NCBI GenBank assembly: GCA_948567375.1
Contig: OX419760.1
Location: forward strand, 2,914,001-2,978,000
From: Lunularia cruciata
Taxonomy: Eukaryota > Streptophyta > Marchantiopsida > Lunulariales > Lunulariaceae
Direction of reading: 5' to 3'
DNA: 64,000 nt
Shown here one piece after another: positions 29,561 through 59,113 of the stretch. A program made the translations under genes and the position numbers. Under the pieces are notes generated by a model. That model did not search any database, was not told the origin of the DNA, and saw only the letters and a list, made by a program, of their open reading frames with translations. The number at the start of each line of letters is the position of its first letter. Within the stretch, counting starts at the first letter, position 1.

Positions 29561-32189
29561 GTAGGTCAGCAAGCCATGGGCTAAATTTGGATGATGTAAT
29601 GAAGGCAACAACCGTAAAAGAAAAAACACCTTAATCAGTTAGTAGGAGGGGTCCAAGAAGTAGTGATTACCAAGTACAACCTATCCCAAGCTTGTATTTG
29701 TAATTGCACTTTTCTTAATCAACCACTATGTAATTAATGAACATAAAGGTATGTTGTAAATATGCAAGGAATATGCAATAAATATGCAAGATATGTGAGG
29801 ATACCACTCAAAGGAGCCAATTGTATATGTTGGCACCACAAGAGCTAGTTGATCACTTAGTATGAGTAATTGTACATCCTAGGACTTGATTCATTAAGTC
29901 TAGAGTAGTGGATTATTAACCAAAATTATCTGACCATCAGTAAGGGTAGGAATGTGTTTAGTGGTATAGTATGTCAAGGCTCTCAACTTGGTTTTTTATT
30001 TTCCTTATACAATTTTAAAAAGATGGGACCTTTGATTTGGACACTGATTGGATCTCCTTGTTCTAAGTGGCAAGAGTAAGCTCACTTGTTGGCTAGGTCA
30101 ACAAATCAACAATTAAAGATGGAGCATACTAGTAATCTAAGAAGGTACATAAGTTAGGAGGTAGTCCTAGCACCTTTTTGTTAGTATGTGGTTGGACATG
30201 AGCTAAGTAGAGGCCTGCCCATTTTCAGAACCTTTTTGAGGTAGTAGTTCATAGAACAACATAGCCAGGTAGAGGGTGAGCAACAACCTACTCCTAGTCA
30301 ATGTGAGGACCAAATGATATTTGGAGTTTTATAAGCATATCCATTGAATGATTATATTATAGCTTTAGTGCACATTACATTTGCTTTATTTTCTCTTCTC
30401 TTGTGACTTGCTATTTGTTGCATGGATGGAGTTGAGTGCAAGAACTTGTTTTGCCTAGTAGGTATATGGTCTATAAGTTGCAATTGATCTCAAACCAATT
30501 GCTTTATTGTCCAACAATTGTTGAATGCTAATGGAACAAGTTCTTTACAAGGTTCTCATTGTGATCAATTTGCAAGTTCATGATCCATTGAACTCTCCAA
30601 GAAACACTCTAGGATGGATCAAAGTTTGCTCACTTTTGGATCACACTAAGTCACCAACTTGACTTGGATCCAACACCAAGAGCACCAGAATGCACCTTGA
30701 AGTATCCATCAGGCTGCCAAATGGGATAATAGGCATTGAGTAATCCTATGTCAAGCATTTTGCCATCCAAGAGTCCTCCACATCAACTGATAGTGTTTGA
30801 TTTATCTTTCAGCACTCAATCCAAAAACTGATTGACCTTACTACCTATAGTTACTCCTTGGGTAAGGATAGGATTTCTTTGTAGTTAGCAACAAGGTGCA
30901 GATAAAAATATTAAGAGTTGAGTAGTGTGGGATAAGTAGGATAAAAAATTGGTTCAACCTAACCTTGGTTTACCATGATTGAGTAAGCCTTAGCTTTGGG
31001 AAAAATCCAAAGAGAGTAGCAGACATGAAAGTTCCAAAGCCATCTCATGGGTAGGATTTGGGATCTGGATCAAGGAGGCACCAAAGTTCCATGGCAAGGA
31101 TGGTGTGCTCTGGATTTAATGATTGGATCCGCTCCCAAATTGAAAGTCATCTTAATATTGTAGTCTTAGAACTAAAAATGGGAATGGGAGTTGAGTAAAA
31201 GTTGGTCAATGTTTTGGCCAAGATCTCCAAGTGAGGTGTGTATTGGGTGGATGGGATGATGAGTGTGACTAAGACCGGGTCATTCCTTACTCTTGGGATT
31301 ATCATGAGTTCTATCTTTGAACCAAGGAGAAAAAACTTTTTATCAATATTTGCTAAATGATCCAAGCTTGTTAGTGAAGATCATAAGTATAAAGGCAAGA
31401 AGACTAGAGAAGAGATATGTCCACTGATTTAGTTCAAGGAGAGGAACATGGTTGCCACTAGCCATGTAGGTAGAGGACAAGAAGACCTCACATTGGTAGT
31501 TGTTAAAATCTAGCTTTTGGCTCTAGGTAGTCAACAAATCACTTCACTTTTGTCAAGACACAGATAGTTGATTGCAAGTGATAAACCCCATTAAACCTTG
31601 GTGAGCAAGGCTCTCAAAGCCACCCCATAAAACCAAGGAAATTCTAGATTTGGGATAATTCATACCATAACTTGTGTGTGTATTGTTGTAGCAAAAACCT
31701 TTGGGAAGGGAGTTTGAGAGAAGATCTAGTGATACTTATGCATAGTCTAGGAGTAGTTTGGAACTCACACTTGTATGCCTTAACTTGATCCTATTTTGGG
31801 GATTGTGTGCATATAGTGATTTGATGTAGGGGACTGGTCTCAAGCCACTTCAAGCCTATCTAGTCTCCTTTGAGCACAATAATGGTTAATCAAAGTCTCC
31901 TTGTAGTTATAGACCTTTCAAGAATTACCTTGCGTGGAAGGACATTTTCTCTTTGAGTATTGGGTGGTGGTGGCCACTTCAACCCCAACCTGATCTAAGA
32001 TACATGGTGTGTAAAGGAGGCTGTTTGCTACAGCAAGGCATAGATCCATCATTTCTTTATGTTGACCATTAGATTGAGCTTCAAAATTAAAATTTTCAAG
32101 GAAATGACTTATGTATGCATGTTATCCTACCTTGAGCAATTTTTTGAGGTAGTTGAGGATACTTCCAATAACCTAACCTCCACATAGAG
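29561..32189. other. No recognisable gene
   Basis: Long AT-rich stretch without a supported gene. The only frame above 70 codons (31147-31365, minus) has no motif. It lies upstream of the truncated family-M pol and may include its degraded 5' part, but no gag zinc knuckle or methyltransferase motif is seen. Confidence 0.4.
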
Positions 32190-34560
32190 TTTGGAAGATC
32201 TTAGAAGTTAAACAAGTTGTTTTGCCTCCAATATGAAGGTTTTAGGTGCTGCAAAAGGACTTAGTATTTAGATTGAATTGGCTATTGATACATCATTTTT
32301 TTTATCCCTATAGATATAATGATATGGGGAGAACCTTGATTTAGAACTAGAGTAGAGACCTTTTATTGACTATTTGGTGGAGGTTTCACATGGAGGGTAT
32401 GCTTTAGCTACAATGATGCTAGCTAAGAAGGATGTGCATGGCAAAAGCATGGATGAGCAGCTATGTGGAGATTACTATCCAATCAATTGACATACTAAGG
32501 TTGATTGGTATGTTATGTCTACATTGGAGGAGATCTTTGGTGTAATTGAGCATGCAAGGTCTTCAATACATTGGATCTTAAGTAAGATTTTCCTGATCAT
32601 CAATTGCTGATCACGAAGAAATTCAAGTCAGAGGCTATTGATCTTCCCAATAAGGATGTATGTACTAGTGGTTGTTCTTAACATTTAGGTTAAAGAATGG
32701 TCTTAATGAGATCCAAAGAGTCATGGATAGGATTCTATTAGGATTGGATTTTTCTTTGTGTTATATTAATGACATTTTGGTTTATAGTGCTATTGTGGAG
32801 GAGTGTAAGAGGCATTTGTGGAGGTGTTTGAGAGATTGAGATCTCATGGACTCAAATTATATCATAGGAAGTAGAGATTCATCCAAGAGCAAGTTAAGTA
32901 TTTGGCTCACAATATCTACCCAAGTGGAATTGGTGTTCAGTAGACCAAGATGGAATATATTGCATGTATTTTTAGCCTACATATATGAGTAGAGTGTGAG
33001 AATTACTTGGGTTGGTACAATTCTATCATTGATATGTTAGATGATTTAATTTAATTTCCAAGGCCTTGATAAAGCTAACAAAGCTTTCATAGAAGTGGTG
33101 TTGGGAAGATGAGCACGAGAGAGATTTAGAGCTCAAGGAGAGGTTGATATTTGCCTCTATTCTTAGAAGATAGATCAAAGGACCCCCATTCCAAGTTCAT
33201 ATTGATTGGAGTACATTGGGACTTGAAGTAGTGATCACCTAGCAAGATGATGAGGAGAAGGAGTTTGTGGTGGCATATGCTAGTTGCTATAACAATTCAG
33301 TGGAGGCAAAGTATAATTCATATCAAGGAGAATGCTTAGTAGTAGTGTGGGCATTAGTACATTTCCAATTTTATTTATTTTCTAATCCCTTCATTCTCAT
33401 CATTGATCATCAACCATTGAAGCGGTTGATAGATTCAAACAAGATTTTAAGGAAGCTTGCATGATGGGCTTTGATATTTTAGGAGTATGATTTCATGGTT
33501 GTTCATAGACTTGGAGTGGTGAACCATGATATAGATGGGTTGAGTAAAAACCAATGTACTAGTCAACATGATTAGATTAGAGCACATTGGCATGGTGAGA
33601 TGGATCATGAGATAATGCTAGGTTGGTATACATCTAGCCTTTTGTGTATAATGATTGAGGCTTTGGTGGTTTCTCCCTCAATATAGACAAGAAGAGTTGT
33701 TAAGGTCTTAGATCCGAAGAGTGTAGATATTGGTATAGGTCAACAAGATATTCATGATGATCTCTTAGTGATAGACTATCTTTGCATTGGTGTTTTGGGT
33801 GGCACAATTTGTGCCAATGAGAAAGACCACATCCTTTAGCAAGCCATGCAATTTAGATTGGAGTCCAAACATCTATCTTGGGTTTGAGAGGATGATAAAG
33901 CATGCATAGTACCCCTTCCATCTTAAAGACCATAGTTGGTATAACATGCTCATAAGTAGCTAGGAAATTTTGGAGGAAAGTGGACATATAGCTTACTTTA
34001 GAGTCATTATTGGTGGTATGATATGTAGACTAATATATATCAATTTGTTGCCAGATGTATGGTTTGTGACCAAGTTAGAGCATCATTCAATGTTCTTATG
34101 CCATAATTACATGCACTACCTATCATGGGGTTGGATTATTGCTAGAGTTTGGACTAGAGTTTGGACTTTGTTGGACCTTTATTATTGATGGTGAGACATC
34201 ATTGGTATGTTTTTTTATGGTGGAATACTTCTCCTAGTGGATTGAATTGGTGGTACTTCTTGACAAATCCAATGAAGAGATGGCTCATTCATTATTTGAT
34301 GGGGTTCTTAGTTGTTTTGGTGCACCAATTGAGGTCTTGATTGATCAAGGTAGAGAGTTATTGGAAGAGTTTCAGGTCTTATACGATAAGGCCTTGATTG
34401 ATCATCATATTGCCTCCTAAGATCACCTTAAGACAAATGATTTAGTAAAGAGAGTGGTTTAGATGGTGAAGAAAGGATTGCATAAGTATGGTTTGCAAAG
34501 AGGCTACTAAGGAGATTAGAATTTCCAATTACTTTGGTTGGCTATGGGCTATTAGTTTAG
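32190..34560 (+). pseudogene. Family-M gypsy pol, copy 1 (RT, RNase H, integrase)
   Basis: This aligns throughout with the pol at 43.74-46.74 kb, starting at 'acaagttgttttgcct', so the 5' end is truncated near 32190. The RT active site is CYINDILVYS (32759-32790), in which the first Asp of YIDD is Asn. The connection segment and RNase H follow at 33180-33550 (VAYASCYNNSVEAKYNSY, GECLVVVWALVHFQFYLF, IDHQPLKRLID). The integrase zinc-binding and core regions lie at 33940-34500 (WWYDM-like region, GAPIEVLIDQGREL with the second Asp, then DHLKTNDLVK replacing the usual DHPxTDGLAE). Many stops. It reads into a well-conserved C-terminal part and then an LTR. Confidence 0.8.
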
Positions 34561-35110
34561 TTGGCAAGCCTTCTTAGTATCCTTTTCTCCTTATTTCTTA
34601 CTCTATAGATAAGATCTAGATTTATCTGTAGCCATTCACTATGATGCAATAGTAGTTTTGGACTTGGATGATCTGGATGTATAGGTGAGTGCATGTTCTC
34701 AATGTGCAAAGATCTTTTGGAGAATGATGCCAATGGTCTTTGAGAACTTAGCAAATGCTTAGCATATGGATACCTTATGTTACACCACTATTCAAAAGAG
34801 AGGTTACATACCTTTGATCCATCAGTTCCATCCATGTGATTATATATATTTATAGTAGACACAAACAACTATTGATGTGACTACAACCCATATTATCTTA
34901 AGAACGTGTGAAGTCTTGCCTTCCAAAGTGCTTATGTTAGAAGGATGTGATGATATTGTTTGGAAGGATCATGTATGCAATTATGCACCATGCCACCTCC
35001 CAAATATTGATGGCATGATAGACCCAAACTTGGCATTTTGTATGTGCATGCTTGTAATGTATGTTATGTGGCTTTTTGGTTGGAGTTTCTACTATGTTGG
35101 TGTGTGATAA
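34561..35110 (+). pseudogene. Family-M integrase C-terminal part with possible PHD-finger remnant
   Basis: The frame continues the copy-1 integrase: FSPYFLLYR near 34580, VVLDLDDLDV at 34652-34680, MPMVFENLANA near 34728, then 34877-35107 with THIILRTCEVLPSKVLMLEG and DIVWKDHVCNYAPCHLPNIDG ending in DPNLAF. I recognise this C-terminal module from a gypsy family in which it is followed by a PHD-type zinc finger. Here the last ~60 bp give only a degraded match with a shift (M-L-C, G, C spacing near 35055-35105). Copy 2 has lost this whole segment. Confidence 0.5.
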
Positions 35111-35123
35111 TTGTTTGAGAAGA

Positions 35124-35562: not shown

Positions 35563-37089
35563 TTAGAGAAGTGAGTCAAGGTGAAATTTGATGCAGGAAC
35601 TGCAAGTGTTGTTGGTGGTATCTCCAAGCTTGGTGGATCATGGTGTCTCAATCGAGTAGTTCAGATTTCCCTGAGAGAGAGAGAGTGTGTGGAAGCACTG
35701 GAAAAATTTGGAGCTAAGGAGAAGCACTTTTCAAGCGGTAGTTGTGATTTTGAGCTTAAGACCAATTTGTTGTGAGTTGAGCTCAGAAACTAAAATTGAA
35801 GGTGGAGTTGAGAGCACATCCTCACAAATTAGAGATTGGACAAAATCCATTTTTCCAATTTGGCTTGAGTGAAGAGTTAGTGGAGGATTTGGCGGTCAAC
35901 CCTTTTTAGGGATTTACGTCAGATTTACATCAGATCTTGTGAAGGATTTATGTCAGATTTTGTGAAGGATTTATGTCAAATTTTGGCAAGAAGAACTTTG
36001 ATCATTGAACTTTGAAGAACTTTGATCCGATCCTCGATGATCCTTGTAGCTTAGGAAGTAGATAGGTACTCCAATTGTGTCAAATGCCAAATGATGGCAG
36101 AGTCAGTCACGTGTTGATTTATGAGATGGAGCATTCTTATGATTTGACCCCCTCCATTCTTTGCTTCCTGTTTGTGCATCGTGTTTGTGTGAGGTGCCTT
36201 GAATTTTGAGCATTGGTGCTCTAGTGTGCTCTTGGTAGTGAGGCTAGAGTGATGACCTATTAGTTTTTTTCTCTCTGATGAAGCATGAAGTGATGACCTA
36301 TAGACCGTGAGAGTGCGTGTTGTAATGGCAGGTTACATGTTACCCTTTCCCCTAGTGTAGTTACCTTAGTTAGAGTTATAGTAATGGGTGGTGTTCCATA
36401 GGTATTGGCACTTGGTGTTGCTTAGTTGGTGTTGGCACTTGGTGATACTTGTTGTTGTGGTTTGCGATTGCAGTTTGTGGTTCCAACTTGTGGTTGCAAT
36501 TGCAGTTTCTTTGTCACGATAGAGTTCTTTGGGGATTCCAAAGGAACTAGCCCTATAGTATGTAGTGGGTTTAATTAGAGTAGCATTCAATATCATCATG
36601 TATCTTAGGTCCCAATTAGGGAGGAGATTGACTCTGAGTTGGAGTTTGACACAAGAGTTGATTCAATTGAGAGTGCACTTGGCGTGTCCGCACCGTTGTT
36701 GTGGGACATGGACAAGATTTATGGGACCCCCAAAGGCCCTAGGTGTTACTCTGGTACAGTGGGTACCATTGAATTGGATGACTTCATCCATGAGTTTGAT
36801 AGTTGATGTGATTTGCAGTAGATGCGGAACCCAACTTTGTTTACACCCTTCATGGCATAGAAGAGGTTGTTTCAGCATTTAGAGGGTCCGCCAATGGATG
36901 ACTACCATGAGTTTAGGAGAGCTCACTTGGAGGATATTGAGTTATGGAGATAGTATTGATCTCCAAACTATATCTCCATCACTTCAAGCTTGGTCGCTAG
37001 GAGTAGATTAGCTATACCCACGAGTTCTAGCTCAAGTAACGTTGGTGGAGCTAGTAGAGGTGCACTAGCTAGAGATAGTGCTACACGAG
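35563..37089 (+). other. Leader and decayed gag N-terminal part, family-M copy 2
   Basis: This is the sequence between the LTR and the readable gag. Only interrupted frames are visible, such as NFVYTLHGIEEVVSAFRG near 36830-36890, which may belong to gag. A short duplicated phrase 'gatttatgtcagattt' occurs near 35910-35990. Confidence 0.4.
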
Positions 37090-37860
37090 TGGAGGTACCA
37101 CTATAGGAGGTGGTGTGATACCGGGGTTTAACCCCACGGTGGAGTTCTTCCAATGTTTGAGGTAGAACTACCAAGGAGTGTAGACTGACAAGTTGAGGAG
37201 CTTGCAAGAGTTCCAGCAGGAAGGTGGAGAGAGCCTACACAAGGCATACACTTGCATGAGGTGGCTGATCAGTTTCACTCAAGGAGTTATTGAGGCCCAA
37301 GCAGTCCAGTTTTGGTATGGGATATTGGATAGAGCATTGCGACATAGAGTTCATGATGTTATGTTGTTATAGGCTACTTTGCCTACTTTGGTAATGGTCT
37401 CTGGTTTGGCTGAGCATATTGAACTCAACATGGTGGAGGAGAGGGTAGTGACATCTGGATTTGGTAGGGAGACCTTGTTCACAACTGTTACTTCTTCTAG
37501 AGTGCAATAGAGTGCACCACACCTAGTTGGTTTTTGAGGACAAGATGGACAGCCCAAATCCTATGGAGCGAGTGGAGGGCCTAGTGGAGCTAGACCATTA
37601 CCTTCATTTTTGGGTCAGTTGCAGCCAATAAGTGGTAGTGTTGCTTGTTGGACTTGTGGTGGACCTCACCATAGGAGAGAGTGTACTCAAAGCAACAAAC
37701 ATGATACCTCTGGTGCATCACAGCCAACACAGAGACAATGTGAGCATTGCCATAGATTTGGTTACACTAGTGACCAATGCTTTGACCTACACCCAGAGTT
37801 ACGGAGTGGTAGGGCTGCTATGGCAGGTAGTAGAGGAGCTCCAGTTAAGGGAGGATGAGG
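37090..37860 (+). pseudogene. Family-M gag with two zinc knuckles
   Basis: A capsid-like helical segment is at 37190-37500 (LRSLQEFQQEGGESLHKAY, GVIEAQAVQFWYGILDRALR, SGLAEHIELNMVEERV). The nucleocapsid frame at 37610-37858 has knuckle 1, CWTCGGPHHRREC (37646-37684), in the CX2CX3HX4C spacing used by many plant gypsy gags. Knuckle 2, CEHCHRFGYTSDQC (37739-37780), is followed by the usual FDLHPELR; its His has become Tyr. Several stops precede the knuckles. This is the N-terminal product of the copy that carries the methyltransferase domain downstream. Confidence 0.75.
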
Positions 37861-38370
37861 TGGTGATAGAGGATCTACACCTAGTAAAGATGCAGTACTT
37901 GCCCTTACTTTTGATATAGCTATTGCTACTCGGATTGAGCAGTTGGAGTAGTTAGAGCCCTCAGATTGGCTAGTATGGCCATTGCTCAGAGGAGATCAGA
38001 TTTGGGTGCTGAGGCTTCCACCTCATATGTTGGTGATAGAGATGCTTTGTACTTCATGTGTGGAGTAGCATAGGTGGATGCATCTATAGTAATGACTAGG
38101 AGTGAAGTACGTGCTCTAGAGCCTAGAGGAGCATCAATGGAGTTAGACCCATAGAGAGGAGAGGTTGGGAGACAAGTCAAACTTCCCCAATCTTTCATGC
38201 TATCTAAGGCATTGTAAAGGATATCCATAGCTCCTAGATGTCCCAGTGCAGGTGTGGTAGGTGGTAATGGAGTTCATTATAGAAAGTTTAGTTTGTGCTA
38301 ATTTATTGTGAGAGAAAGATAAATAAAAACTCACTATGTAAATAAATTACTGCCCTCGCCCTTCATACAT

Positions 38371-38436
38371 CGTGCAACTTTTGAACCTACAACATTCAGA
38401 TTATGAGCCTGACGAGTTACCAATTACCCACGAACA
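38371..38436 (-). pseudogene. tRNA-Met(CAT)-like sequence, decayed tRNA or SINE head
   Basis: On the minus strand a perfect anticodon arm, TCAGG-CTCATAA-TCTGA, is present with anticodon CAT. Upstream is a D-arm-like GGTAATTGGTAACTCG and downstream a T-loop-like GGTTCAAAAG. Outer ends TCGTG and CACGA can pair as a short acceptor stem. The T stem is weak, so it is not a functional tRNA. The surrounding ~300 bp (about 38280-38580) differ in composition from the gypsy sequence on either side, which suggests an inserted tRNA-derived SINE. The boundaries are not defined. Confidence 0.45.
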
Positions 38437-38584
38437 TCATCAAAGTCTAACGCTTTGCCATTATTTTTGGATGAAACCCGGTTTTTCGAAGGGTTGGAGA
38501 TGCAAAGCTCTCGACCAACGGCCCAAAGAACAATACTTGCTAGTCAGCCACCTGCTACAACACAAACTGAGTCTAGCATGATTT

Positions 38585-39640
38585 GGGGGCGGCTCAGTTG
38601 ATTATGCGGTGCTCTTTGTTCTTAGCCAGTGACATGTTTACATTGGGAGTTGACCCAACCCCAATGTTCCGGTTGGCTACCATGCTTTGTGAGAGTAGGG
38701 ATGATGCGGTTCATACTACTAGAGTAGCAGTGGTTGATAGTGGAGCTGACTTGGTTGAAGAGCATGGGGTCCATTCAGCGACCAATGGTTTATGGCAAGC
38801 AGCAATGGCTAGATTGGAGGAGTAGCCAGCTAGACCGGCCTTTGAGAGAGCATGGTTCACACTTGGTGTTGTCTTATTGGATAACCAGAGGGGGATTTTC
38901 TATTTGGTGGGACCTTCAAGGAAGGTTTGTATACCATAGAGAGTCTTGTTAGACTTTGGTACCCATCCCCTTATGTTGGGGAAGGCTACAGTAGTTGGTC
39001 TGGAGTTACAAAAGACCGATGTAGAGAGGTGTCCATTTCAGATCCAAACATCTCTAGGTGGTGGTTTGACATAGTACATCACATGTGGGGAGCTTGTTGT
39101 CCAGGTTCAGCTTGGTCATCTGATTGATAGCTTGGTGGTGACAGCTCAAGCTATTGTGACAATAACTAAATAGCTGAGTCATACGATGTGCTAGTTGGAG
39201 GAGCAGTGTTATACCCCATAGGTTTCAGCACTGACTATTGGGAGGAGACAACCTCCTATAGACCAGGTTGGCAGTCTGGTTATGTCGCTTACCAATATGC
39301 TTCAATAGTGGCAGTCTTGGCTCACTATAGTCCGGGACCATGGCAGCATCAATTTCAGCTTTTAGTGGTGTAGTTACTTGGCTTGGTGACTTGTAGGAGG
39401 TGAATGCCCATGCAAAGGATACTCTAGTGCCAGAGGAGATCACTTGGATTTGGAGTACAAGTAGGATTGTTCTATCCACCTTGGATGTTCCATTGTGGAG
39501 TTTAGAGGAGGCATTGCAGCAGCATGCAAATCAATTGGTACAACAGGCTTGGAGTGGAGCCTTCGTACCATCAAGAGATGAGTGTGAGGATGAGCCTCCA
39601 GAGTCAACTACTTTGACACCTCTGGATACCACACTCATTG
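38585..39640 (+). other. Decayed spacer or protease region of family-M copy 2
   Basis: This lies between gag and the methyltransferase domain. A DSGADLV string near 38728-38750 resembles a retropepsin active site, but flanking protease motifs are missing, so it is only a candidate. The rest is interrupted frames. Confidence 0.3.
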
Positions 39641-39649
39641 CTTGGTAGT

Positions 39650-40640
39650 ATCCAATATAGTGGATATGTCTATTGGAGTTGTTTGGTAGGATTAGTATCA
39701 AAATAGTTGCGGTATTACAGGCGGGTATACAAGTACAGAGGTACTTGTATGTAGAGAGAGATAAGACTGCTAGGCGAGTCTCTCTACATCATGTGACACA
39801 TTTGGCCTATTGGTATCTTGAGTTATTACCAATATCAACAGTCAAAGATTACTAGAAGGCCCTACCAACATATATTTCCTTATTGGGAGCACATGATCTG
39901 GAGAGACATGAGCCTATTCACTTGGTGATTTTGGATGGCCATGTACGGGACATATACGTGTTGGCCAAGGTTTGGATCTTTAGGATCCTTGTTTTGGTGT
40001 ATTTTGGGAGATGTTATGGATACTATGACATCTCCAGGTCCATCAGTCTGTTTCTCTATCTTATCTTTTGGAGAACATTCCTTTGATGTGCGTTCTTGTA
40101 CTTGGGTGGTGGCAAGTATACATTAGGTCTATTCTTAGATGGGACCTGCTGTATTGTTAGATGGAGCTAAAGTGGGATCACGGGCTCATCAGCTTTGTTT
40201 TTGGTAGATGAACCTCTTACCTAGAGAGGTTTACAGCATGCATATGATGGTATTCAACAACTAGACCATATCCTTGTTGATGATATCTTGGATGTGAGGC
40301 ATCAATCTTAGACAATGGTAGTGGTTGATAGGTCACCTATGGCAGTGGTGAACCTAGTTAGATAGCCTAGAGCCGCTTTTCCCACATTTATGAGTTTTCC
40401 AAGCTCTCATGCTTTTCATGAGGGAGAATCTAGACTTGTTTGGGACTTACAATTATAGCAGTTGGTGGAGCCCAATGCCAATGAGAGAGAGCGAGCAATG
40501 GGTTTTTGCACCGGTAATACTATTTTTCCAATAATGTCAAAGGCATCCATGCATTAGGTGTTAGGTCAAGCTATGGACTTGAATTTTTTGACATAGATTG
40601 TGAGCCTTGGCTTGGTAGAGTAGCATAGGACGCGCTTGAT
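39650..40640 (+). pseudogene. DNMT3-like cytosine-5 DNA methyltransferase domain inside a gypsy element
   Basis: The motifs of a C5 methyltransferase, which would bind S-adenosylmethionine and methylate cytosine, appear in canonical order through three frames. Motif I is LLELFGRIS with AGIQVQRYLYVERDKTARRV (39670-39790). Motif IV is GWPCTGHIRVGQG (39933-39970), with the catalytic Cys codon at 39942-39944. Motif VI is SYLLENIPL (40055-40085). Motif VIII is AKVGSRAHQLCFW followed by MNLLP (40168-40222). Motif IX is NERERAMGF (40480-40506), and motif X is LGQAMDLN (40561-40584). The spacing and the AHxxxxFW and ERxxAMGF...LGQ strings resemble DNMT3 rather than DNMT1 or CMT. At least two shifts and several stops inactivate it. 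Strand and position (gag, this domain, RT) make it part of the retroelement. Confidence 0.82.
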
Positions 40641-41519
40641 AGGCATCGCCACTCAAACACTTGTGAGCCATGTGCCTATCAAGACAATTCAAGCACATGC
40701 TGGGGACAATGGACCGGGTGGACAAGTGTGACAACTCGACAAATATCACTTTTGCGGTAATCAGGTAAGTAAAGTTTGTTCCCACAGAGATACAATTCAG
40801 AATTGGTCAAATACAAAGTCAAATGTCACGATATAGTTCTTCTTGGTTTTGTCTTTAATCTCTCAGGTAGAAACCACACCCAGAAGAGAGTAACAAGCAT
40901 TGACTCGCAATCTCATCACGAATTAACATTCTTTAATCACAACTCCATCAAATCTTTCCAAACAATCTTGATTGTGATGATTCAGGCTCTCCCAAAAATG
41001 GCACTTCACTGCAAAATGACTTTGCCTTAGAATTGTGTTCCACCCCTCCACTGAAGGCACAACTTCCTCAAACAAAATTGCTCCATATCAACTTTGCGCT
41101 GCACTTACAAATGCAAAATATTGCCAACACTACAATTCCTCTTAGATCTGTCAAGGCATTGCTCCGATTGCACTTCACTCAGGATCAAACACACATATTG
41201 AAGATCAAGGCTCGGGAATCCAACATCCAACATCCAACAAGCACAATGCCTTGCACTTTGAATTTCTCCACACACTCATAAACACAAGCACAAAATTGAT
41301 ACTCGGAATCAAGCTCAAGCAACAAGCACTACTTCACAACACTTTGTTTTATCTATTCTCAGAAACTATGAGCACTGAACAACATAAGACTATGAATGCC
41401 ACTCTTAAACAGTGAAGCAAATAATAGGTCTAACAACTATACCGTTCTACAACAACTCTTCTAACCTGCAGATCCAAAATGACAATGCACCTCTTCATAT
41501 CTGCCTCTTCAGATTTCAA

Positions 41520-42790
41520 ATCTATTACTAATCCGATCCAATGTCTACTTCTTCCTTGGCTTTCAAACCCGATCCCAAAGTAACTTCACTCACTACTACT
41601 CTATCCTTGGGTTTCATAACTCCTAACTCCTCTACCGATTCTACTAATTCTCCACTTTGATCTACAATACCTATCACAGATAATCCTTCTAAATCTCTAT
41701 CTCCCAACCCACTCTTCTCTTAAGTCTCCAATGTCAACTCTGAAGACACCTACACTCCTACTTCATCTACTTTGGGTTTCATTACTATCAATTCCTTTAC
41801 TAATTCTACTATGTCATCATCAAGAATTGTAATTGAAAACATGAGTACACTATCTACACCTTCAATTTGCAACCCACTTTCCCCTAATTGCTCATGAAAC
41901 TGACCCGAAGTGTAATACTCCGAGGACAAGAGAGGAGAAAAAACACAGATTGCACACTCAAACATTCGATGCCCCAAGGGAGCACCTTCTCTTTATTATA
42001 TAGACAAAGAGGATCTCCTCCAAGGAAGCTCCACCATAGGATTAGGGACACAGATAGGTGACATGTCAGCAAGCTCCACCCTTGGATTACTTACTTGGAT
42101 GGGTGACCTGTCTGGTCTAGGTCCTATCTGGTTGGTTAAACAAGCTTTGACCGGAGGGAATCTTTTAGGGAATCTTCCTGTAGGAATCTCAGAATCACAT
42201 GAGTAAGGTACCATTGGAAAACTCTCGACAAGACAAACCAGGGGGAAGGGAAGGCTAGCCTTTCCTCTGTTGGGGGGGAATCTGCACATTTTTGAGGCTA
42301 ATTCATCCGTTTAGGCCTTCGAAATTGCCTTCAAAGATTTCAAGCATATTTCGGTTCCTACTCTATTAGTAGAAGTCCCCTTTTGGTGATACCTCTTTCT
42401 GATCTGTTTATTCCATCATGTGTAACATCCTTCCAGATGTTACCAAACCAATTCTCACCTTTAAATCATATGTCTAGCTATTGGTTCTAAGGTTCTCAAG
42501 TCTATTTCGGTTTCTGCCCTATTAGTAGAAGTACTCTTTTGGTGATACTTCTATCTGATCTATTTTGACCATCATGTATAACATCATTCTAGATGTTACC
42601 AAACCAAATTTCATATCTAGATCATATGGCTAACCCTTGGTATTACACGAAGACACTTACCGTCTGATCTTGCACTTTGGGTTCATTCACTACTACTATT
42701 TCTCTTCTAATTCTATCCTATCTTCAATCAGAACTGAAATTGAAGTCATGGGTATCCTAAATATCTTCTTTCCCTCCTCTAACTTCCTCT
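41520..42790 (-). pseudogene. Repetitive acidic protein remnant, split by a solo LTR
   Basis: On the minus strand three related ~55-65-residue units are readable. One lies near 42730-42652 (VLIEDRIELEE, shift, VVNEPKVQDQT), right of the solo LTR. One is at 41860-41740 (ILDDDIVELVKELIVMKPKVD), and one at 41680-41575 (VDQSGELVESVEELGVMKPKD, RVVVSEVTLGS). The shared core is ExVxEL.VMKPK followed by a VSxEVTL-type strand. The plus-strand phrase 'ttgggtttcat' marks each unit. No known family is recognised. It belongs to the unidentified insertion and may be a captured gene fragment or that element's own protein. Confidence 0.45.
41911..42647 (-). mobile_element. Solo LTR of the chromovirus family
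   Basis: This 737-bp LTR runs from TGTAATACTCCGAGG to TTGGTATTACA and is homologous to the LTRs at 49698 and 55532. It is flanked by perfect 5-bp duplications CGAAG (41906-41910 and 42648-42652). No internal sequence remains, so it is the product of recombination between two LTRs of a former full element. Its orientation corresponds to minus-strand transcription. It interrupts the repetitive protein remnant. Confidence 0.92.
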
Positions 42791-42889
42791 AATGCCTCTG
42801 GCAAGATTCTCGAAGTCATCTTCATTGCACTCCGAGGTCCGACTACCTTAGATCTAGTCATCTTTGTCTTTAGGCAAAGTCTCATGATC

Positions 42890-42995
42890 CAAAGTTGTGT
42901 AAACCCGAAGTCCAAAATCCAAAGTCCAAAGACCCAAAGACACCAATCCAAAGTCCAAAGTCCAAAGACTCAAAGACACCAACCCGAAGTCCTTC
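42890..42995. repeat. Short tandem repeat of 'ccaaagtccaaagac'-type units
   Basis: The phrase 'atccaaagtccaaag' followed by 'caaagacacca' occurs in tandem with variation, giving a simple Gly/Phe/Leu/Trp-rich translation on the minus strand. It is best treated as a simple repeat. Confidence 0.6.
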
Positions 42996-43420
42996 AACTA
43001 CTTTGTACATCTACTCTCAAAACTTCAAATACTTGTTACTTCTTCTATAGACCTTTAAACTCTATGATTTTGGTGCCAACAGAAAGCCCTGAACAAGAAA
43101 ATTCCAACGAAATATAGCATGCATGATTTGGACCTTTTGTCACTGAGATATGGCACTCGCAAGAATCCTGACCTACAACTTCCATTCCGATGCGAAGAAA
43201 CCCTCCTTTGGCATTTGACCTCCTCCTTCTTCTTCTTCCTCTGACACAAAGTAAGCTTCTTTGGGTCTGATCCAGTCCAAGTTCTTCTTCCTCTTACATG
43301 AAGTTGACTTCCTCGGGTTGAATCAAAATACAAACTTCTCATCGTTTCTTCTCCATTTGGGTTCAATTTGGTTTCAATAATGCACTTCTTCTTTAAAACT
43401 CGTCCAAAATGAAAAATGTG

Positions 43421-44803
43421 GGCACCACAACAAGGTATTCTTGGGACACAGCCAATGGCTACTAGGGAGAGTGGTCTATTAGGAGTCTATCCATGTGAGC
43501 GTGGTCTACTTGGATTACACCCTTGGTCTACTTGGGATGTAGCTAGAGGACGTGTGGAGCTTGTAGCCAGAGTAGAGGGAGTTTTTCACATAGAGGTTGG
43601 GACCTCTAGTGGTCAGGAGCATGACACTATTGCTCCCAAGGGCCCAATGTAGCAGCAAGTCAATACGTCTTCCACTCTTGCGACAATTACAGAGGATACT
43701 TGGGAGCCAAATCTTGGACCCAAGCTTACTGGAGAGGGAAGATGGAGAGTTTGGAGGTTCTTGAGGAGCTACACAAGTTGTTTTGCCTTTAGTATGAAGG
43801 ATTTGGGTGTTCTAAAGGGACCTGGTACACGGATTGAGCTGACTAGCAATACACCCATTTTCTTATGTCCTTATCTCTATAGTGAGATGGAGAGGACATT
43901 GATTCAGAGCCATAGTAGAGACCTTTTTGAGGCTGGTTTGGTAGAGATTTGGCATGGAGAGTATGCATTAGCTGTAGTGATGCCAACCAAGAAGGATATG
44001 CATGACAAATACACAAATAGGCAGATGTATGGAGATTACCCTCCTATCAACCAATAGACTAGGGCTGATTGGTATGCTATGCCTACACCGGAGGAGATTT
44101 TTGATGCAATTGGGCATGCAAAGTCTTTAGTACTTTGGATCTTTGAGTAGGATATCATCAATTGCCGATCAAAGAGAAAGAGAAGTCCAAGACAACATTC
44201 TATGCTATTGATCTTCACGGTAAGGATGTGTTATATCAATGGAAGTTCTTACCATTTGGGTTAAAGAACACTCTTGCCAAGTTCCAAAGGGTCATGGATA
44301 GGATCCTAACTCGATTGGATTTTTCTCGGGGCTATATTGATGACATTTTGGTCTATAGCACTATTGTGGAGGAGCATGAGAGATAGTTGTTGGAGGTGTT
44401 TGAGAAGTTAGATCTCATGGACTTAAATACATCTTGGGAAGTGTAGGTTCTTCCATGAGCAAGTTGAGTATTTGGGTCACACTATCTACCCTCGAGGACT
44501 TGGTGTTCAGCAGACCAAGGTGGAGGCTATTGCACGTATTCCTTGGCGTACGGATGTGAGCAAAGTGCAAGCATTCCTTGGGTTGGCAAACTTCTATTGC
44601 CGCTATGTTAGAGGATTTAGTGCCATTGCCAAGGCCTTGATGAAGTTGACCAAGCTTACACATGAGTGGTGTTGGGGAGATGAGCAAGAGAGAGATTTTT
44701 TAGAGCTCAAGGAGAGGTTGACATCTGCTCCTATTTTGAGGAGACCGATCAAAGGATGACCATTTCAAGTTCATACTAATTGGAGTATGTTGGGGCTTGG
44801 AGC
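43421..44803 (+). pseudogene. Family-M gypsy pol copy 2: linker and reverse transcriptase
   Basis: After the 2.7-kb insertion the frame resumes with a Gly-rich linker (43421-43640), then the RT entrance at 43740-44057 (MKDLGVLKGPGTRIELTSNTP, YSEMERTLIQSHSRDLFEAG, VVMPTKKDMH). A shift follows, then 44162-44386 with YQWKFLPFGLKNTLAKFQRV and the catalytic box GYIDDILVYS (both Asp kept). 44472-44759 holds the thumb and connection (GHTIYPRGLGVQQTKVEAI, VQAFLGLANFYCRYVRGFSA). It ends in the first RNase H strand HTNWSMLGLGA, where the expected Asp is Asn, and is interrupted there by a solo LTR. Confidence 0.88.
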
Positions 44804-45492
44804 TATGACACCCATTTGTGCATGTGTGTGGTACTATGATATTTAGCTTGGTGTTATAAGTACTTGAGAGATATTATTTATATAGAGATAAAGGATGGTT
44901 CTATATTAGTCATGATTAGCTAAATTTAGTCATAGCTAAGATAGAGAGAACCTTACTTTAGAGGAAGTGGAAAAGATGAGCACCATTGTTTTGGATTCTA
45001 GTGTGTTGACTTGATATTATTCTTAGGTATTTGGCTTTGAGGAAAGAATTGAGAACTCTTGGCCCGCAAGCCTTTTTGTTTTGGATTCTTCTATAGTCCA
45101 AGGATAGCCCATGTGAAGGAATCCTTGACTTAGTGGTTGGGTCAAGATAAGATCACATGCTTAGTAGAATATTCCCATGTGAGTGGATATTCTTTTATAC
45201 TTTTTGACTTTACTTGACTTTTAGTCTAATAACTTGGGTTACTACGGTAATTAGTAACTTTGGTACCTTACTATTTCACAAGTATATAAACAAGGGGTGA
45301 GGAGGTACTCATCATCCTTTCATTTACAACTATCTCTCTCATTGAGTTTTGTAGTGAGCAATGTCTTGAGTCTTGGAATGTTAACCTCAGAGGAGTATGA
45401 TGGAGTTGGGGTTTCTTGCCTTCTTAGTCCATGGTGTGCTACCATAATAGCCATCAAAGGTTCATCTTGAGTGAAAGACAGGCCGGCTCACA
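44804..45492 (+). mobile_element. Solo LTR of family A inside family-M RNase H
   Basis: This 689-bp LTR has the family-A start (TATGACACCCATTTGTGCATG) and end (GACAGGCCGGCTCACA). It contains the TATA-like TATATAAACAAGG near 45285. Flanks gagct and gagca suggest a 5-bp duplication GAGC(A) with one change. The RNase H frame before it (LGLGA) continues after it (VLTxHDDEG-like), so the insertion postdates the family-M element. Confidence 0.85.
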
Positions 45493-46745
45493 GAGCAGTG
45501 CTCACCTAGCATGATGATGAAGGACAATAGTTTATAGTGGCATATGTTAGTCGCTCCAACAATTCAGCGGAGGTAGAGTATAGTTCATATGAGGGAGAGT
45601 GCTTGGTAGCAATTTGGGTAGTAGCACATTTTTTATATTACCTATTTGGTAACCCTTTCACTCTCATCATTGATTATTAGCAGCTAAAGTGGTTGATGGA
45701 GTCCAATAAGCTTTCAGGGAAGCTTGCACGATGGGCTCTGATTTTACAAGAGTATGATTTCACGGTTGTTCACAAACTTGGAGTGGTGAACCATGATGCA
45801 GATGGGTTGAGTAGAAACCCATGTCCCAGCCAGCATGATCGGACTGAACCACATTGATAGGGTGAGACAGATGAGGAGATGGTGCAAGGTTTGCATGCAT
45901 CGGCCTTTCTGTGTATATTTTTTGAGGCTTTGGTGGTATCTCTCTCAATGCATATAGGAGGAGTTATTGAGGTCACAGATCCAAAGAGTAAAGATATTGG
46001 TACAGTTCAGTGAGACATTCATGGTGACATCTTAGTGATGGACTATCTTTGCATTGGTCTTGTGGATGGCATAGTTAGGGCCAAGGAGAGAGATCGTGTT
46101 CTTCAGCAAGCCAAACAATTCAGATTGGAGTGCAGACAACTTTTGTGTGTATAGGAGGATGGTAGAGTGCGAGTAGTACTACTTCCATCTTAGAGACCAC
46201 AGTTGGTACCTCATGCTCATGAGGAGCTAGGACATTTTAGAATAAAGTGTACATATAGCTTACTCCATAGTCATTATTGGTGGTACGGTATGCAAACCAA
46301 GGTATTGAAATTTGTTGCCAGATGTGTGGTTTGTGACCAAGTTAGAGCATCATTCAATGCACCTATGCCACAAATACACCCATTACCTATCTTGGGATGG
46401 ATTACCATTGGAGTTTGGACTTTGCTGGACCTTTACCGCTGACTGTGAGACATCATCGATATGTTTTGGTGATGATAGAGCACCTTTCTAAGTAGATTGA
46501 GTTGGTGGCACTTCTTGACAAGTCTAGTGAAGAGATAGCTTACTTGTTCTTGGATTGAGTTCTTAGTCATTTTGGTGCACCAGTTGAGGTTTTGACTGAT
46601 CAAGGTATAGAGTTCTTGGAGGAGTTTCATGTCTTGTGTGAAAAGGCTTTGATTGATCATCATACTACATCCTAAGATCACCCTGAGGTAGATGGCTTAG
46701 CAGAGAGTGGTTCAGACGGTAAAGAGAGGATTGCAAATTTATGTT
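45493..46745 (+). pseudogene. Family-M copy 2: RNase H remainder and integrase
   Basis: RNase H continues with VAYVSRSNNSAEVEYSSYEG and ECLVAIWVVAHFLYYLFGNP (45493-45660), ending in LARWALILQEYDFTVVHKLG and DADGLSRNPCP (45720-45830). The integrase zinc-binding region is at 46203-46360 (ELGHFRIKCTYSLLHSHYWW, ARCVVCDQV, an HHCC finger). The core follows with EVLTDQGIEF (second Asp, near 46590) and DHPEVDGLAE (Glu, near 46680). The gene ends abruptly near 46745; the C-terminal module seen in copy 1 is absent. Confidence 0.82.
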
Positions 46746-46829
46746 TGACTTGTGTTTGAGTTGTGCTTCTATAGTGTATGATGTTGACAATGATGTATGT
46801 TGTGCAGCAATGTATATACGCACAACAAC

Positions 46830-47261
46830 TGTCATACCATTTGTGGTGTCGTATCTAGATTGCTCAGACATTGGAGTTCCAGTGATAGTAGTTAGAGGCA
46901 TTTTGGTAGTTACTCATAGACTACTTTCCGATAGTCAGATTTTGTGTTTAGGGTATTGAATTCATGGTGGTGCCCACCATCACTTGCACCGTTTGGTGTG
47001 CCATCTACGGGACCATTGAGATGAGACCTAGGTCAGAATTAGGAGTATATCTTGGAAGTGTAGCTCCAAAGAGCTCATTTCTTTGATGTTGAGCCTTCGA
47101 GATCTTGGCTGGAGTGGATAGAAAGCCGGTGAGTGTCACTTGGATTCTCTTAGCTAGAGTGGGTGTGGCTTGACTATAATTAGTTTCTTGTTGTTGGCAA
47201 GATCAGATCAAGTATTGATCTGAGTTCAGTTGATTTGAGTTGTAAACAATCTGATTATTAT
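46830..47261 (+). repeat. 3' LTR of family-M copy 2
   Basis: It starts TGTCATACCATTTG and aligns with 35124-35562 to near 'gagttgtaaacaatctgatt'. The end is blurred (TTATTA instead of TTATTACA). No polypurine tract precedes it; instead the 70-bp motif abuts it, so this boundary has been rearranged. Confidence 0.75.
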
Positions 47262-47586
47262 GGCACTTTAGAGTTTATGTATGATTTATATGTGAGTTAT
47301 GCTTCTATAGTGTACAATGTTGATAGCAATGTATGTTGTGTAGCAATGTATATACGCACAACAAAGATGGCATATGGCATGTTTCACATTTGCCCTCATG
47401 GTGGTTTCTCAAGAGCAATAAATATGTCCTTAATGTACTTAATATTATAGCTATTTCACTTCTTATATGATATAGATTGTAAACATGCAACTAACAATTG
47501 TGCTTGATAGCACCCAGTCTCTTGATCTTTGCTCACCATAAAGCATATCACATACTTGGAGTATATGGTTATCTAGAGTTAGAGGG

Positions 47587-48280
47587 TGTAATACCAATAG
47601 CTAGATAGATGCTCTAGAGATGAAATTTGGTTTGGTAATATCTAGAAGGATGTTATACATGATGGACTAAGTAGATCAGACGAGGTATCACCAAAAGAGT
47701 ACTTTTACTAATAGGTCAGAAACCAAAATATGCTTGGAAACTTTAGAATCAATAGTTAGGCATATGATCTAGAGGTGAAACTTGGAGTGGTGACATCTGG
47801 AAGGATGTTACACATGATGAAGAAAGTAGATCAAATAGAGGTATCACCAAAAGATCACTTCTACTATAAGAGCAGAAGCCAAAATAAGCTTGAAATTTTG
47901 GAGGCAATTTTGAGGGCCTAATTGGATTCCTCTTCCCCCTATTTGTCTCACCAAGAGCTTTCCAATGGTACCTCACCCACATGAATTTCTACATAAAGAG
48001 ATTCCTACATAAAGATTCCCTAAAAGATTCCTCTAGTCAAAGCCTATTTGACCAACCAGATGGGACCAAGATTGACATGTCACCCATCCAAGAAAGTAAT
48101 CTAAGGGTGGAGCTTGCTGATGTGTCACCTATCCATGTAACTTATCCTATGTAGAGCTTCCTTGGAGGAGATCCTCTTTGGCTATATAATAAAGAGAAGG
48201 TGCTCCTTTGGAGCATCGCAATTTGAGTGTGGAATTCATGTTTTCTCTCTATTGTGTTTCTCTATCCTTTGAATATTACA
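47587..48280 (+). mobile_element. Solo LTR of the chromovirus family, plus sense
   Basis: This 694-bp LTR runs from TGTAATACCAATAGC to GAATATTACA in the opposite orientation to the copies at 41911 and 49698. The TATA-like box CTATATAATAAAGAG is at about 48182. Flanking 5-mers (gaggg and aagga) do not match, so the copy is older or rearranged. The internal two-unit repeat typical of this LTR is present. Confidence 0.88.
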
Positions 48281-48399
48281 AAGGAAAAAATACCAATTGT
48301 GGGTCTTTGGAGTTTGTGTGTGACTTTTATATGAGTTGTGCTTCTATAGTATATGATGTTGCGAACAATGTATGTTGACTAATGATGTATATTTGCATG

Positions 48400-48800
48400 A
48401 AAACTAGTTTGCTAGAATGCTAGAATGATAGTTTTGGCAATCACCATGTTATCAATAATTGCTCAAGGACTACTTAATGGCAACTAGATATGGTATTAGG
48501 TTGACTGATTGCACCATTGAGCTACCATTTGCATTGTTAGATGGGCTATCAAATGCGCCATTAGTGTTGGATTCCTAGTTGCTCTAGAGTAGGTATACCT
48601 TGAAGTGCAACCCTAGAGAGCTCATTTCTTCTATGTTGAGGCTTCAATCTCTTGGCTATGGTCAATAGAGGTAGGCAAGTGTCACCTTCATTCTCTTAGC
48701 AAAAGTGGATGTGGCTTTAGAATGTGATCAAGACCTATTGGTTGTGTATATTGAGTGTTGAGTGTTCAAATTTGAGTCCTTATTCAAGTTTTCATTGATT
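48400..48800 (+). repeat. Diverged family-M LTR body
   Basis: Similar in order to 46830-47261: 'gcaccattgagctacca', 'tagagagctcatttctt', 'tgttgaggcttcaatctctt', 'attctcttagcaaaagtggatgtggctt'. It is clearly older than the 47-kb copy. Confidence 0.65.
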
Positions 48801-49169
48801 GATTGTTGTCGGTTTGTGTAACTTCTATATTAGTTGTGCTTCTATAATATATGATGTTGAAAACAATCTATATTGAGTAGTGATGTATATATGCACAACA
48901 TCATCAATGGAAAGAATAATTATAATTATTTGATATCAAGCTTGAGTACAAACCAAGAAAGTTCCATATCATTCTTAATGTCCTATCAAGACAACTTGGT
49001 TTGAAGATTTCTTTTGAATCTCTCATAGAAAATACCATTACCATGGTGCCAAAGGACTCAAAGATCCAAATAGAATTAAAAATTACTTTACAATAAGACT
49101 TCTTCTTTCATCTTGTGCAAAGTCATCTTGTTGCACATGATAAGGAGTACAACACCTTTTCATTAAAAT

Positions 49170-49697: not shown

Positions 49698-50405
49698 TGT
49701 AATACTCTGAGGACAAGAGAAGAGAGAAAACACAGATTGCACACTCAAACATTCGATGCCCAAGGGAGCACCTTCTCTTTATTATATAGACAAAGAGGAT
49801 CTCCTCCAAGGAAGCTCCACCATAGGATTAGGGACATAGATAGGTGACATGTCAGCAAGCTCCACCCTTGGATTACTAACTTGGATGGGTGACCTGTTTG
49901 GTCTAGGTCCTATCTGGTTGGTCAAACAAGCTTTGACCAGAGGGAATCTTTTAGGGAATCTTCCTATAGGAATCTTAGAATCACATGAGTAAGGTATCGT
50001 TGGAAAGCTCTCGTCAAGACAGAGCAAGGAGGAGGAGTGGGCACATTTTCAAGGCCTAATTCATCCATTTAGGCCTCCGAAATTGCCTTCAAAGATTTCA
50101 AGCATATTTCGATTCCTCCTCTATTAGTAGAAGTCCTCTTTTGGTGATACGTCTTTCTGATCTGTTTAGTCCATCATGTGTAACATCCTTCCAGATGTTA
50201 CCAAACCAATTCTCACCTTTAAATCATATGTCTAGCTATTGGTTCTAAGGTTCTCAAGTCTATTTTGGTTTCTGCCCTATTAGTAGAAGTACTCTTTTGG
50301 TGATACTTCTATCTAATCTATTTTGACCATCATGTATAACATCATTCTAGATGTTACCAAACCAAATTTCACATCTAGAACATATGGCTAACCCTTGGTA
50401 TTATA
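49698..50405 (-). repeat. 3' LTR of the chromovirus
   Basis: 708 bp. The sense-strand TATA-like box TCTATATAATAAAGAG is at about 49778-49793. Two ~156-bp units sharing 'ctattagtagaagt.ctcttttggtgata' start at 50121 and 50277. Compared with the 5' LTR it lacks most of the 'ggaaggccagcctttcc' and poly-G segment. Confidence 0.93.
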
Positions 50406-50420: not shown

Positions 50421-52100
50421 AAGACGCAACATCCTCGTTGCGCAATTGTTGCTCAAATACTTGTACCAACACCGATGCATGTGCCAAATTGGCAGTGGGT
50501 TCCCAGGTTACTTCATAGAGGGGGTAACCTTTCCATTGTACTAGATATTCCACCCACGGATGGCAAGTACCACGCATGCGCTTTTGGAGAATCCGCTCCA
50601 CTTCATATTCCTCTGTGCCATCAATGAGTGTTGGACAAGGTCAAATGTCCTGTGTGGAAGGACCTTGGCTTGATTGGGGAGCATATCTGCATAGTAAGGA
50701 GACATGGAACACTGGATGGATCTTCATGTGTGGTGGTAGCTCAAGGTGATAGGCCACAGTGCCGATACGACGAAGAATCAAGAAAGGCCCAATAAAACGA
50801 GGTCTGAGCTTACGAGATCCAACTAATGTGAGGTTGGTTGTCGATAGCCACACTTGATCCCCAACATTGAACTCCATGTGCCTACGGTGTGCATCAGCAT
50901 ACTGCTTTTGTTGATTTTGCGCAATCTGTAACCTGTGCTTGGCGCTCTCCACACCTTGTTGGATTCTAGAAACAAATATGTTGACTGCATCAACCTTGGT
51001 AGTCATTGGACGGATCTTCATCAAGCTAGAAGGTGTGAAGGGATGCTCACCATACATGAGGAAGAACGGAGTGACCTGGGTGGAGGCATTCACTGAATTG
51101 TTGTAAGCGAATTCCACCAACGGTAGTAGGGTGTCCCACCTCTCTTGCTCTTCTAAGGTGAAGCCGCATAACATGTCTTCAATCGTGCAATTAGCCCACT
51201 CTATTTGGCCATCTGTTTGTGGGTGGTAAGCTGTAGACATGGCCAACTTGGTTTTGAAGAAACCAAAGAGTGTTTGCCAAAACAAATTGGTGAATTGGGT
51301 ACCTCTATCGGTGATGAGTACTCTAGACAAGCCATGGTGAGCAAAGACTGCATCTAAGTATAGTTGAGCTAGTTGTGGAGCGGTCACCTCCTTGGTGGTA
51401 GGGCGTACATGAATCATTTTGCTGAGCCGGTCCACAAAGACCACAATGGAGTCAAACCCTGAGGTGGTCTTGGGTAATTCGCAGACGAGATCCATACTCA
51501 CTTGTTCCCAACGTTGGGTAGGAGTGGAGAGAAGTTGAAGGAGCCCTGTAGGAGCTTGATTATAAGCTTTGTTCTGTTGACAAAGTAGGCAGCTACGCAC
51601 ATAGTCCATCACGTTGTTGCTCATCTTGGGCCAATAGTAATGGCGCTTGACTGCATCCAAGGTCTTGTCTACTCCGACATGAGCTGCAATGGCCGAATCA
51701 TGACATTCCACTAGAATGGTGGAGCATAAGTCTGAGACATTTGGGATCCATAATCTGCCATCCCGAAAGGTGAGTCCTTGGGTGCTGGTGACACCTTTGG
51801 ACGATTGTGCTTCTACAATCTGTGGATCAGTTTTTGTAGCAGCTAGAATCTCTTGCCAAAATTTAGGGTTAATCTTAACCTTTGCCACCAAGTTGTTGGC
51901 CATTGGCATACGGGTGAATGCATCTACCAGTTGTTTCTTACCTTCCACGTAGGTGATTGTCATGTTGAAGTGTTGTTGCCACTCTGCCCACCGAATTTGG
52001 CGACGAGATAGATCCTTCTGCGTCTCGAGGTAGACTAGAGGTTTGTGGTCTATCTCTACTACAAATCTCTCTCGCCCAGGTAGTGCTTCCAATGCTTAGT
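50419..52100 (-). pseudogene. Chromovirus RNase H end, integrase and chromodomain
   Basis: A 483-codon frame (52092-50641) begins in RNase H (VVEIDHKPLVYLETQ, LVDAFTRMP). It continues into the integrase HHCC finger (AAHVGVDKTLDAVKRHYYW, SCLLCQQNK) and the catalytic core: VSMDLVCELP with the first Asp, ITDRGTQFTN with the second, and YHPQTDGQIEWAN with Glu. Then follow FFLMYGEHPF, FNVGDQVWLS and RPRFIGPFLILRRIG. A TGA at 50638-50640 separates the chromodomain (50601-50419), with aromatic residues kept in VEYLVQWKGYPLYEVTWEP. Chromodomains of this type can direct integration to methylated histone marks. The triad is intact, and only the stop and an upstream shift break the polyprotein. Confidence 0.93.
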
Positions 52101-59110: not shown

Positions 59111-59113
59111 TTT

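Follow-up and report, generated by a model that had tools for sequence, protein, structure and literature searches.

A stretch of 64,000 nucleotides from the genome of Lunularia cruciata (assembly GCA_948567375.1, contig OX419760.1, positions 2,914,001 to 2,978,000 of the forward strand; this whole stretch is called the window, and positions are counted from its first letter) holds at 39,535-40,704, on the + strand, a broken C5-cytosine methyltransferase of DNMT3-like type inside a Ty3/gypsy retrotransposon, with the element's protease upstream and its reverse transcriptase (RT) downstream. The window copy of the methyltransferase is a dead pseudogene. Better-preserved copies of the same element family, read from their sequence, encode Gag, protease and a DNMT3-like methyltransferase in a first open reading frame (ORF1), which closes with UAG, and RT, RNase H, integrase and a PHD finger in a second (ORF2). 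We propose that a methyltransferase made at the level of Gag marks the element's own complementary DNA (cDNA), that the PHD finger guides integration and that the element is in this way tolerated at high copy number, a proposal to which, taken as a whole, we give an even chance. The methyltransferase had been noticed in an initial annotation made from the letters of the window alone; that observation is confirmed here, and its interpretation is supported.

The remnant and its family in the host genome

The frames that bear methyltransferase motifs follow each other along the remnant in the order 1, 3, 2, 1, as seen both by translation and by tblastn, with three frame switches and 14 in-frame stops (3 + 2 + 3 + 6). 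The C5-methyltransferase motifs described by the initial annotation as lying in canonical order on one strand are indeed found on the + strand in that order, distributed among three frames, and the domain does lie at the 39,650-40,640 given for it, for which 39,535-40,704 are better bounds. It had been placed between gag and RT; the RT is downstream, and what directly precedes the domain is protease, not Gag. The intact relative P0001 aligns by tblastn onto the window in four colinear pieces over 39,535-40,620, again in frames 1, 3, 2 and 1 (expect value, E, 3.8e-93), and an X-masked joined reading of the window, composed of the pieces from 39,397 onward linked across frames, retrieved 36 proteins with E <= 0.01 among 6515 candidates, the best at 1.4e-114. 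On these scores the likeness of the remnant to its methyltransferase relatives is far beyond chance. In the window copy PF00145 was matched by no single frame, nor by the joined reading; Pfam and NCBIfam gave nothing relevant on the window reading, the single-frame Pfam scan yielded weak unrelated families only, and a PDB search with the window reading as a single sequence found no match. The initial annotation had looked to PF00145 in a frame-aware search for confirmation, and the empty result, taken literally, contradicts the finding; membership of PF00145 comes instead through the relatives, 16 of the 17 aligned homologs matching the profile.

The genome of L. cruciata has been described as a 580 Mb assembly with Gypsy bursts (PMC9985172). 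A search of the host assembly (565.8 Mb) with PF00145 gave 2161 first-look candidates, 123 of which were scored, all of them listed over the cut-off; 110 of the 123 matches contain no stop, and seven lie in frames of more than 1000 residues, one of these counted through TAG. Thirty loci were retrieved, 25 of which are the element (87-97% identical to the protein of L052, a less decayed own-genome copy of the window copy's subfamily, used as reference for the window alignment) and five are host genes. With 20 longer loci (L045-L064), which were selected via the methyltransferase and have five loci in common with the 25, this makes 40 distinct element copies confirmed to carry the methyltransferase, so that the better-preserved copies foreseen by the initial annotation exist; the confirmation covers these 40 and not every one of the 123 listed matches. 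The five host pieces (L015, L018, L016, L029 and L017) comprise, by our own reading, two DNMT3-type, two DRM-type and one CMT-type gene, and the nearest match of the host DNMT3 is Marchantia DNMT3b (61%).

All 20 longer loci have RT behind the methyltransferase. With strict patterns, methyltransferase motifs IV and X are present in 20, IX in 19 and VIII and I in 18 of them, the zinc knuckle in 19, the Gag motif in 18 and the protease motif in 16. One motif-IV pattern (AGWPCQG) matched five places only, because the subfamily reads SGWPCQG. Homology to the window 5' long terminal repeat (LTR) is full-length near the 5' side in 17 of the 20, partial in L046 and without a match in L051 and L054. 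LTRs stand at both ends in L048, L057 and L063; as the 3' LTRs are only partial (identities of 87%, 95.5% and 96.3% over 328, 134 and 107 columns), they give no LTR-based ages. In ORF2 of L048, Pfam names RVT_1, RNase H, the zinc and core domains of integrase and a PHD finger, with RVT_1, RNase H and integrase in order. The LTRs and the order protease, RT, RNase H, integrase identify the family, at the level of sequence, as a Ty3/gypsy LTR retrotransposon. As to base composition, the 20 longer loci are CpG-poor (0.44) and CWG-rich (observed/expected 1.42), the values for another Gypsy element in the window being 0.48 and 0.68; codon use may explain the CWG richness.

That a host gene, or a chance match to the motifs, came to lie inside a retrotransposon by accident might be read from the broken frames and the empty Pfam result of the window. 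This explanation is refuted, and we leave it practically no probability, by the 40 distinct copies of the domain in the same genome, 20 of them with RT behind, by homologs at the E values given above and by the separate place of the host DNMT3 on the tree described below.

ORF1 ends in all 20 longer loci with a TAG that stands in the RT frame, after the methyltransferase, and the sequence CARYYA follows it directly in 19, the exception being L059. CARYYA after UAG is the type I (tobamovirus) readthrough motif (PMC3542737). The family carries this combination, and readthrough is predicted from the motif alone. The PHD finger, which the initial annotation had thought possible, is indeed present at the integrase end in 16 of the 20 longer loci and absent from the window copy; of the other four loci, three stop short of the PHD position and L064 lacks the finger. 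Gag zinc knuckles had been considered as the 'PHD finger' and were dropped. The best solved matches of the finger include CHD4, PHF12, DPF2/3, ATXR5, KDM5B and PHF21A, several of which read histone H3 without methylation at K4.

Relatives in other hosts, selection and proposed function

A ten-row family alignment matched 117 proteins at E <= 0.001 (some aligned rows included) in a search that scored only the 7995 candidates sharing most words; the last two, P0133 and P0134, resemble ordinary bacterial enzymes. Named hosts of the relatives are Marchantia, Calypogeia, Riccia, Sphagnum and Closterium, and 14 loci in IMG/VR gave pieces 26-50% identical. The order zinc knuckle, protease, methyltransferase is kept in eight relatives, Closterium P0113 among them. 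Little sequence follows the methyltransferase in Marchantia P0037 (1248 residues), Calypogeia P0002 and Sphagnum P0029, which agrees with an ORF1 that ends at the same place, and in Marchantia P0058 an integrase-like sequence, recognised by eye, is followed by a PHD finger.

The motif order I, IV, VIII, IX, X is unrearranged in the element's enzyme, whereas the host DRM has the IX-X part ahead of I. Among 34 own-genome copies each motif occurs in 28 to 32, and 32 retain the catalytic PC and ENV motifs, which distant relatives retain as well. The predicted fold is complete; with its profile match and its ordered motifs, the protein of the element is predicted to be a C5-cytosine methyltransferase (PF00145). 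Sequence profile and fold both rank DNMT3A/B/C first, in line with the DNMT3-like character claimed by the initial annotation, with the qualification that the tree had no DNMT1, CMT or DNMT2 rows and shows a long stem. In this tree, the placement that the initial annotation had proposed, 19 retrotransposon enzymes form one clade on that stem, apart from plant DNMT3; 11 of 66 rows had been dropped, a recognised motif being wanting, and the program warned of long branches. PF11926 (DUF3444) is listed for the plant DNMT3 hits and for none of the scanned relatives.

What the sequences show is the anatomy, the conserved catalytic residues and a predicted fold; beyond this we infer a Gag-level dosage of the enzyme, methylation of cDNA and integration guided by the PHD finger. 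Ribosomes would mostly stop at the UAG, so that the methyltransferase would enter the particle as part of the plentiful Gag product, and RT, integrase and PHD finger would be made through occasional readthrough. Before integration or in its course, the enzyme would methylate the cDNA of the element itself, probably at CpG sites, and a new copy would thus be already marked on arrival, the PHD finger reading H3 unmethylated at lysine 4, as several of its closest solved relatives do, and helping the integrase to settle in inactive chromatin. The element might gain by burdening its host less, or by passing unrecognised as foreign DNA, and the family would then be tolerated in many copies. A position ahead of the stop would also yield much product for an action in trans, in which the methyltransferase would compete with or mislead the host DNMT3, DRM or CMT, or mark host defence loci, as a counter-silencing factor; the host has its own DNMT3-, DRM- and CMT-type genes, which implies that the element's enzyme is unneeded for bulk methylation. 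The data at hand, however, give no sign of release from the polyprotein or of nuclear entry, and methylation usually silences elements, which makes the benefit unclear; we think action in trans unlikely.

Selection was assessed from the ratio of amino-acid-changing to silent variants (N/S) relative to neutral, shared variants being those found in two or more copies. Among 17 copies, the methyltransferase has a shared-variant N/S of 0.33 of neutral (p = 0.006), RT 0.32 (17 copies) and Gag 0.20 (16 copies); the singletons give 1.41, 0.76 and 0.58 for methyltransferase, RT and Gag. With 34 of the 40 copies (six were excluded for indels or want of an anchor; all single-base codon variants were counted), the singletons of the methyltransferase stand at 1.12 of neutral, and shared variants differ from singletons at p = 0.028. 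These ratios suggest a constraint on the methyltransferase within the genome that is present but modest, and a stronger argument comes from how widely the domain is conserved between hosts.

Several results weigh against the proposal. The shared variants of the methyltransferase in the 34 copies reach only 0.63 of neutral (p = 0.016), a modest value beside the 0.33 of the first 17; none of its sub-regions is significant against neutral by itself in the 34 copies (p 0.07, 0.29 and 0.25); and the copies were picked by PF00145 score, a ranking that may favour conserved ones. Only 13 of the 34 copies have the domain open, a stop being present in 21. The TAG of the window copy is followed by CAGCAA, in which CARYYA is not kept, and the copies are about 97% identical, which makes the conservation of CARYYA weak evidence. 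In ORF1 of L046, Pfam names the methyltransferase alone, with no Gag, knuckle or protease family, so that these calls rest on patterns and alignment. The CpG depletion of the family (0.44) is not stronger than that of the other Gypsy element in the window (0.48; one comparison). Finally, the Klebsormidium nitens Gypsy enzyme, like the LINE (long interspersed nuclear element) enzymes, gave no methylation in yeast, which its authors regard as inconclusive (PMC5890265).

A plain pN/pS (the corresponding polymorphism ratio) of 0.45 in the methyltransferase (17 copies), higher than 0.27 in RT (17 of 20) and 0.23 in Gag (16 of 18), also counts against the proposal and is what one might expect if the domain had lost its enzymatic role and now served the Gag product as a structural or nucleic-acid-binding component, in RNA or cDNA binding or in packaging; its seat in the Gag-side product would suit such a role. 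The catalytic motifs kept in nearly all copies and in distant relatives, and the complete fold, argue otherwise, and we hold this reading, too, to be improbable. The near-neutral singletons and the frequent stops would fit a passenger, a gene that a single element picked up one time and that has since multiplied without being of use. Against this stand one clade in the same position in hosts spanning a zygnematophyte, liverworts and Sphagnum, and the smaller share of amino-acid changes among shared variants, and we give the passenger explanation very little credence. We retain self-marking by a Gag-level methyltransferase as the preferred proposal.

Layout of the window

The element with the methyltransferase remnant is copy 2 of the family in the window. 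It aligns with L052 over 36,021-38,273 (85%), 38,534-40,724 (87%), 43,430-44,803 (90%) and 45,493-46,746 (89%), and LTR matches of L052 begin at 35,124 and 46,829. Its parts, preceded by those of copy 1, are as follows.

32,186-35,123 (+): copy 1, RT to integrase and first PHD finger residues; aligned up to 35,128, 78% identical to L052 6911-9861
35,124-35,562 (+): 5' LTR of copy 2; begins with TG and matches 46,830-47,257 at 86% over 437 columns
36,762-37,948 (+): Gag remnant, frames shifted; 79-84% identity in tblastn with residues 1-399 of the unchanged translation of L052 ORF1
37,646-37,780 (+): two Gag zinc knuckles, the second with Tyr for His; by eye from the translation, P0019 tblastn at 37,583-37,948
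38,274-38,533 (no strand): short insert or unalignable stretch ahead of the protease part; blastn gap against L052
38,534-39,280 (+): linker and aspartyl protease region, remnant; tblastn with P0004, P0012 and P0029
39,535-40,704 (+): DNMT3-like C5-methyltransferase pseudogene; translation, tblastn of relatives, L052 alignment
40,725-43,429 (no strand): 2.7-kb insertion within copy 2; holds a repeat also found at 49,698-50,403 and 55,532-56,267
43,430-43,652 (+): C-terminal tail of ORF1 and stop; TAG at 43,650-43,652
43,653-44,803 (+): start of ORF2, RT remnant; 90% identity to L052, tblastn with P0025 and P0028
44,804-45,492 (no strand): 0.7-kb insertion in copy 2; other members of its family at 58,403-59,110 and, in inverted orientation, at 13.3-13.9 and 20.4-21.1 kb
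45,493-46,746 (+): RNase H and integrase remnant; 89% identical to L052 7968-9224
46,830-47,257 (+): 3' LTR of copy 2; pair of the 5' LTR, 86%

The 3' boundary of the 5' LTR is uncertain, similarity to L052 continuing to 35,962 at 72%. In P0004, PF13650 scores 20 bits, under the Pfam cut-off of 24.3. By the alignment, the insertions at 40,725-43,429 and 44,804-45,492 are later events that split copy 2. Copy 2 is without the integrase C-terminus and the PHD finger, the PHD pattern of L052 beginning at 9791. Copy 1 lacks its 5' half and is cut on its 3' side where the copy-2 LTR begins; no trace of a methyltransferase was found upstream of it, which, given the missing half, is uninformative.

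Behind copy 2, LTR-like and 91-base pre-LTR units are repeated at 46,738-47,364 and 48,313-48,901, perhaps as remains of the 3' end of copy 1 or of unequal exchange. A second, fairly intact Ty3/gypsy-like element lies at 50,641-54,916 on the - strand, with ORFs of 484, 195, 290 and 233 residues; among the methyltransferase-bearing proteins listed, only the RT part of P0028 matched it. A dispersed repeat with an internal duplication is found at 41,911-42,648, 49,698-50,403 and 55,532-56,267 (91-94% mutual identity) and inverted at 47,586-48,249 (75-79%). The stretches 15,470-21,071 and 58,407-64,000 form a large inverted pair (5.6 kb at 83%), old retroelements judging from their ORFs, and at 9,444-9,629 a 93-base unit in tandem duplicate resembles, by eye, NLR-type leucine-rich repeats. 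Rfam and transfer RNA scans were empty.

Comparison with known systems

Chromodomain Ty3/gypsy elements (chromoviruses) carry a histone-reading module at the integrase end. The present family has its histone reader at the same place, as a PHD finger rather than a chromodomain, and adds a methyltransferase. Plant DNMT3 (PpDNMT3a/b and MpDNMT3a/b) is likewise DNMT3-type with unrearranged motifs, and differs in being a host gene with a DUF3444 domain (PMC6453930), the retrotransposon enzymes forming their separate, long-stemmed clade.

Retroelement-borne methyltransferases were already known, as the initial annotation had stated: de Mendoza et al. described DNMT-bearing retrotransposons in dinoflagellates and Klebsormidium in 2018 (PMC5890265). 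SymbioDIRS-Dnmt3 and SymbioLINE-Dnmt of Symbiodinium are alike in being retrotransposons with their own cytosine methyltransferase and unlike in element class and host, and two SymbioDIRS-Dnmt3 enzymes methylate CG de novo in yeast (PMC5890265). Our searches of an open-access library listed no paper that describes such elements from land plants, nor an account of a methyltransferase ahead of a leaky-type stop, or of a PHD finger, in such elements; the nearest prior mention is one sentence naming streptophytes (PMC12344493). The 2018 work on algae and dinoflagellates leaves open why an element would bear an enzyme by which it is normally silenced (PMC5890265).

It is possible, though we advance it only tentatively, that a Ty3/gypsy lineage predating the split of zygnematophytes and land plants made a single capture of a DNMT3-like enzyme and has since maintained it in the particle at Gag level, alongside an integrase PHD reader, the pair writing the mark on the cDNA and reading the chromatin at the target, so that the element sets the epigenetic state of its own insertions. 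Marchantia polymorpha, a plant with good genetics, has long, open, annotated relatives such as P0037, which would make the question of why an element bears such an enzyme directly testable.

The closest known case is KnitGypsy-Dnmt3 of Klebsormidium nitens, which likewise sits in a Gypsy-type element of a streptophyte and is DNMT3-related, free of the DRM rearrangement and with key residues kept, its own features being a place in the Pol polyprotein ORF and repeats arranged as in DIRS (PMC5890265). The two are set apart by description, no Klebsormidium-labelled sequence being among the hits listed. In the present family, by contrast, the methyltransferase lies in a Gag-protease ORF upstream of an in-frame UAG, the LTRs are ordinary, a PHD finger is present, and the hosts are land plants and, for the features other than the PHD finger, Closterium; the family would suggest one old capture in streptophytes and not one special to Klebsormidium.
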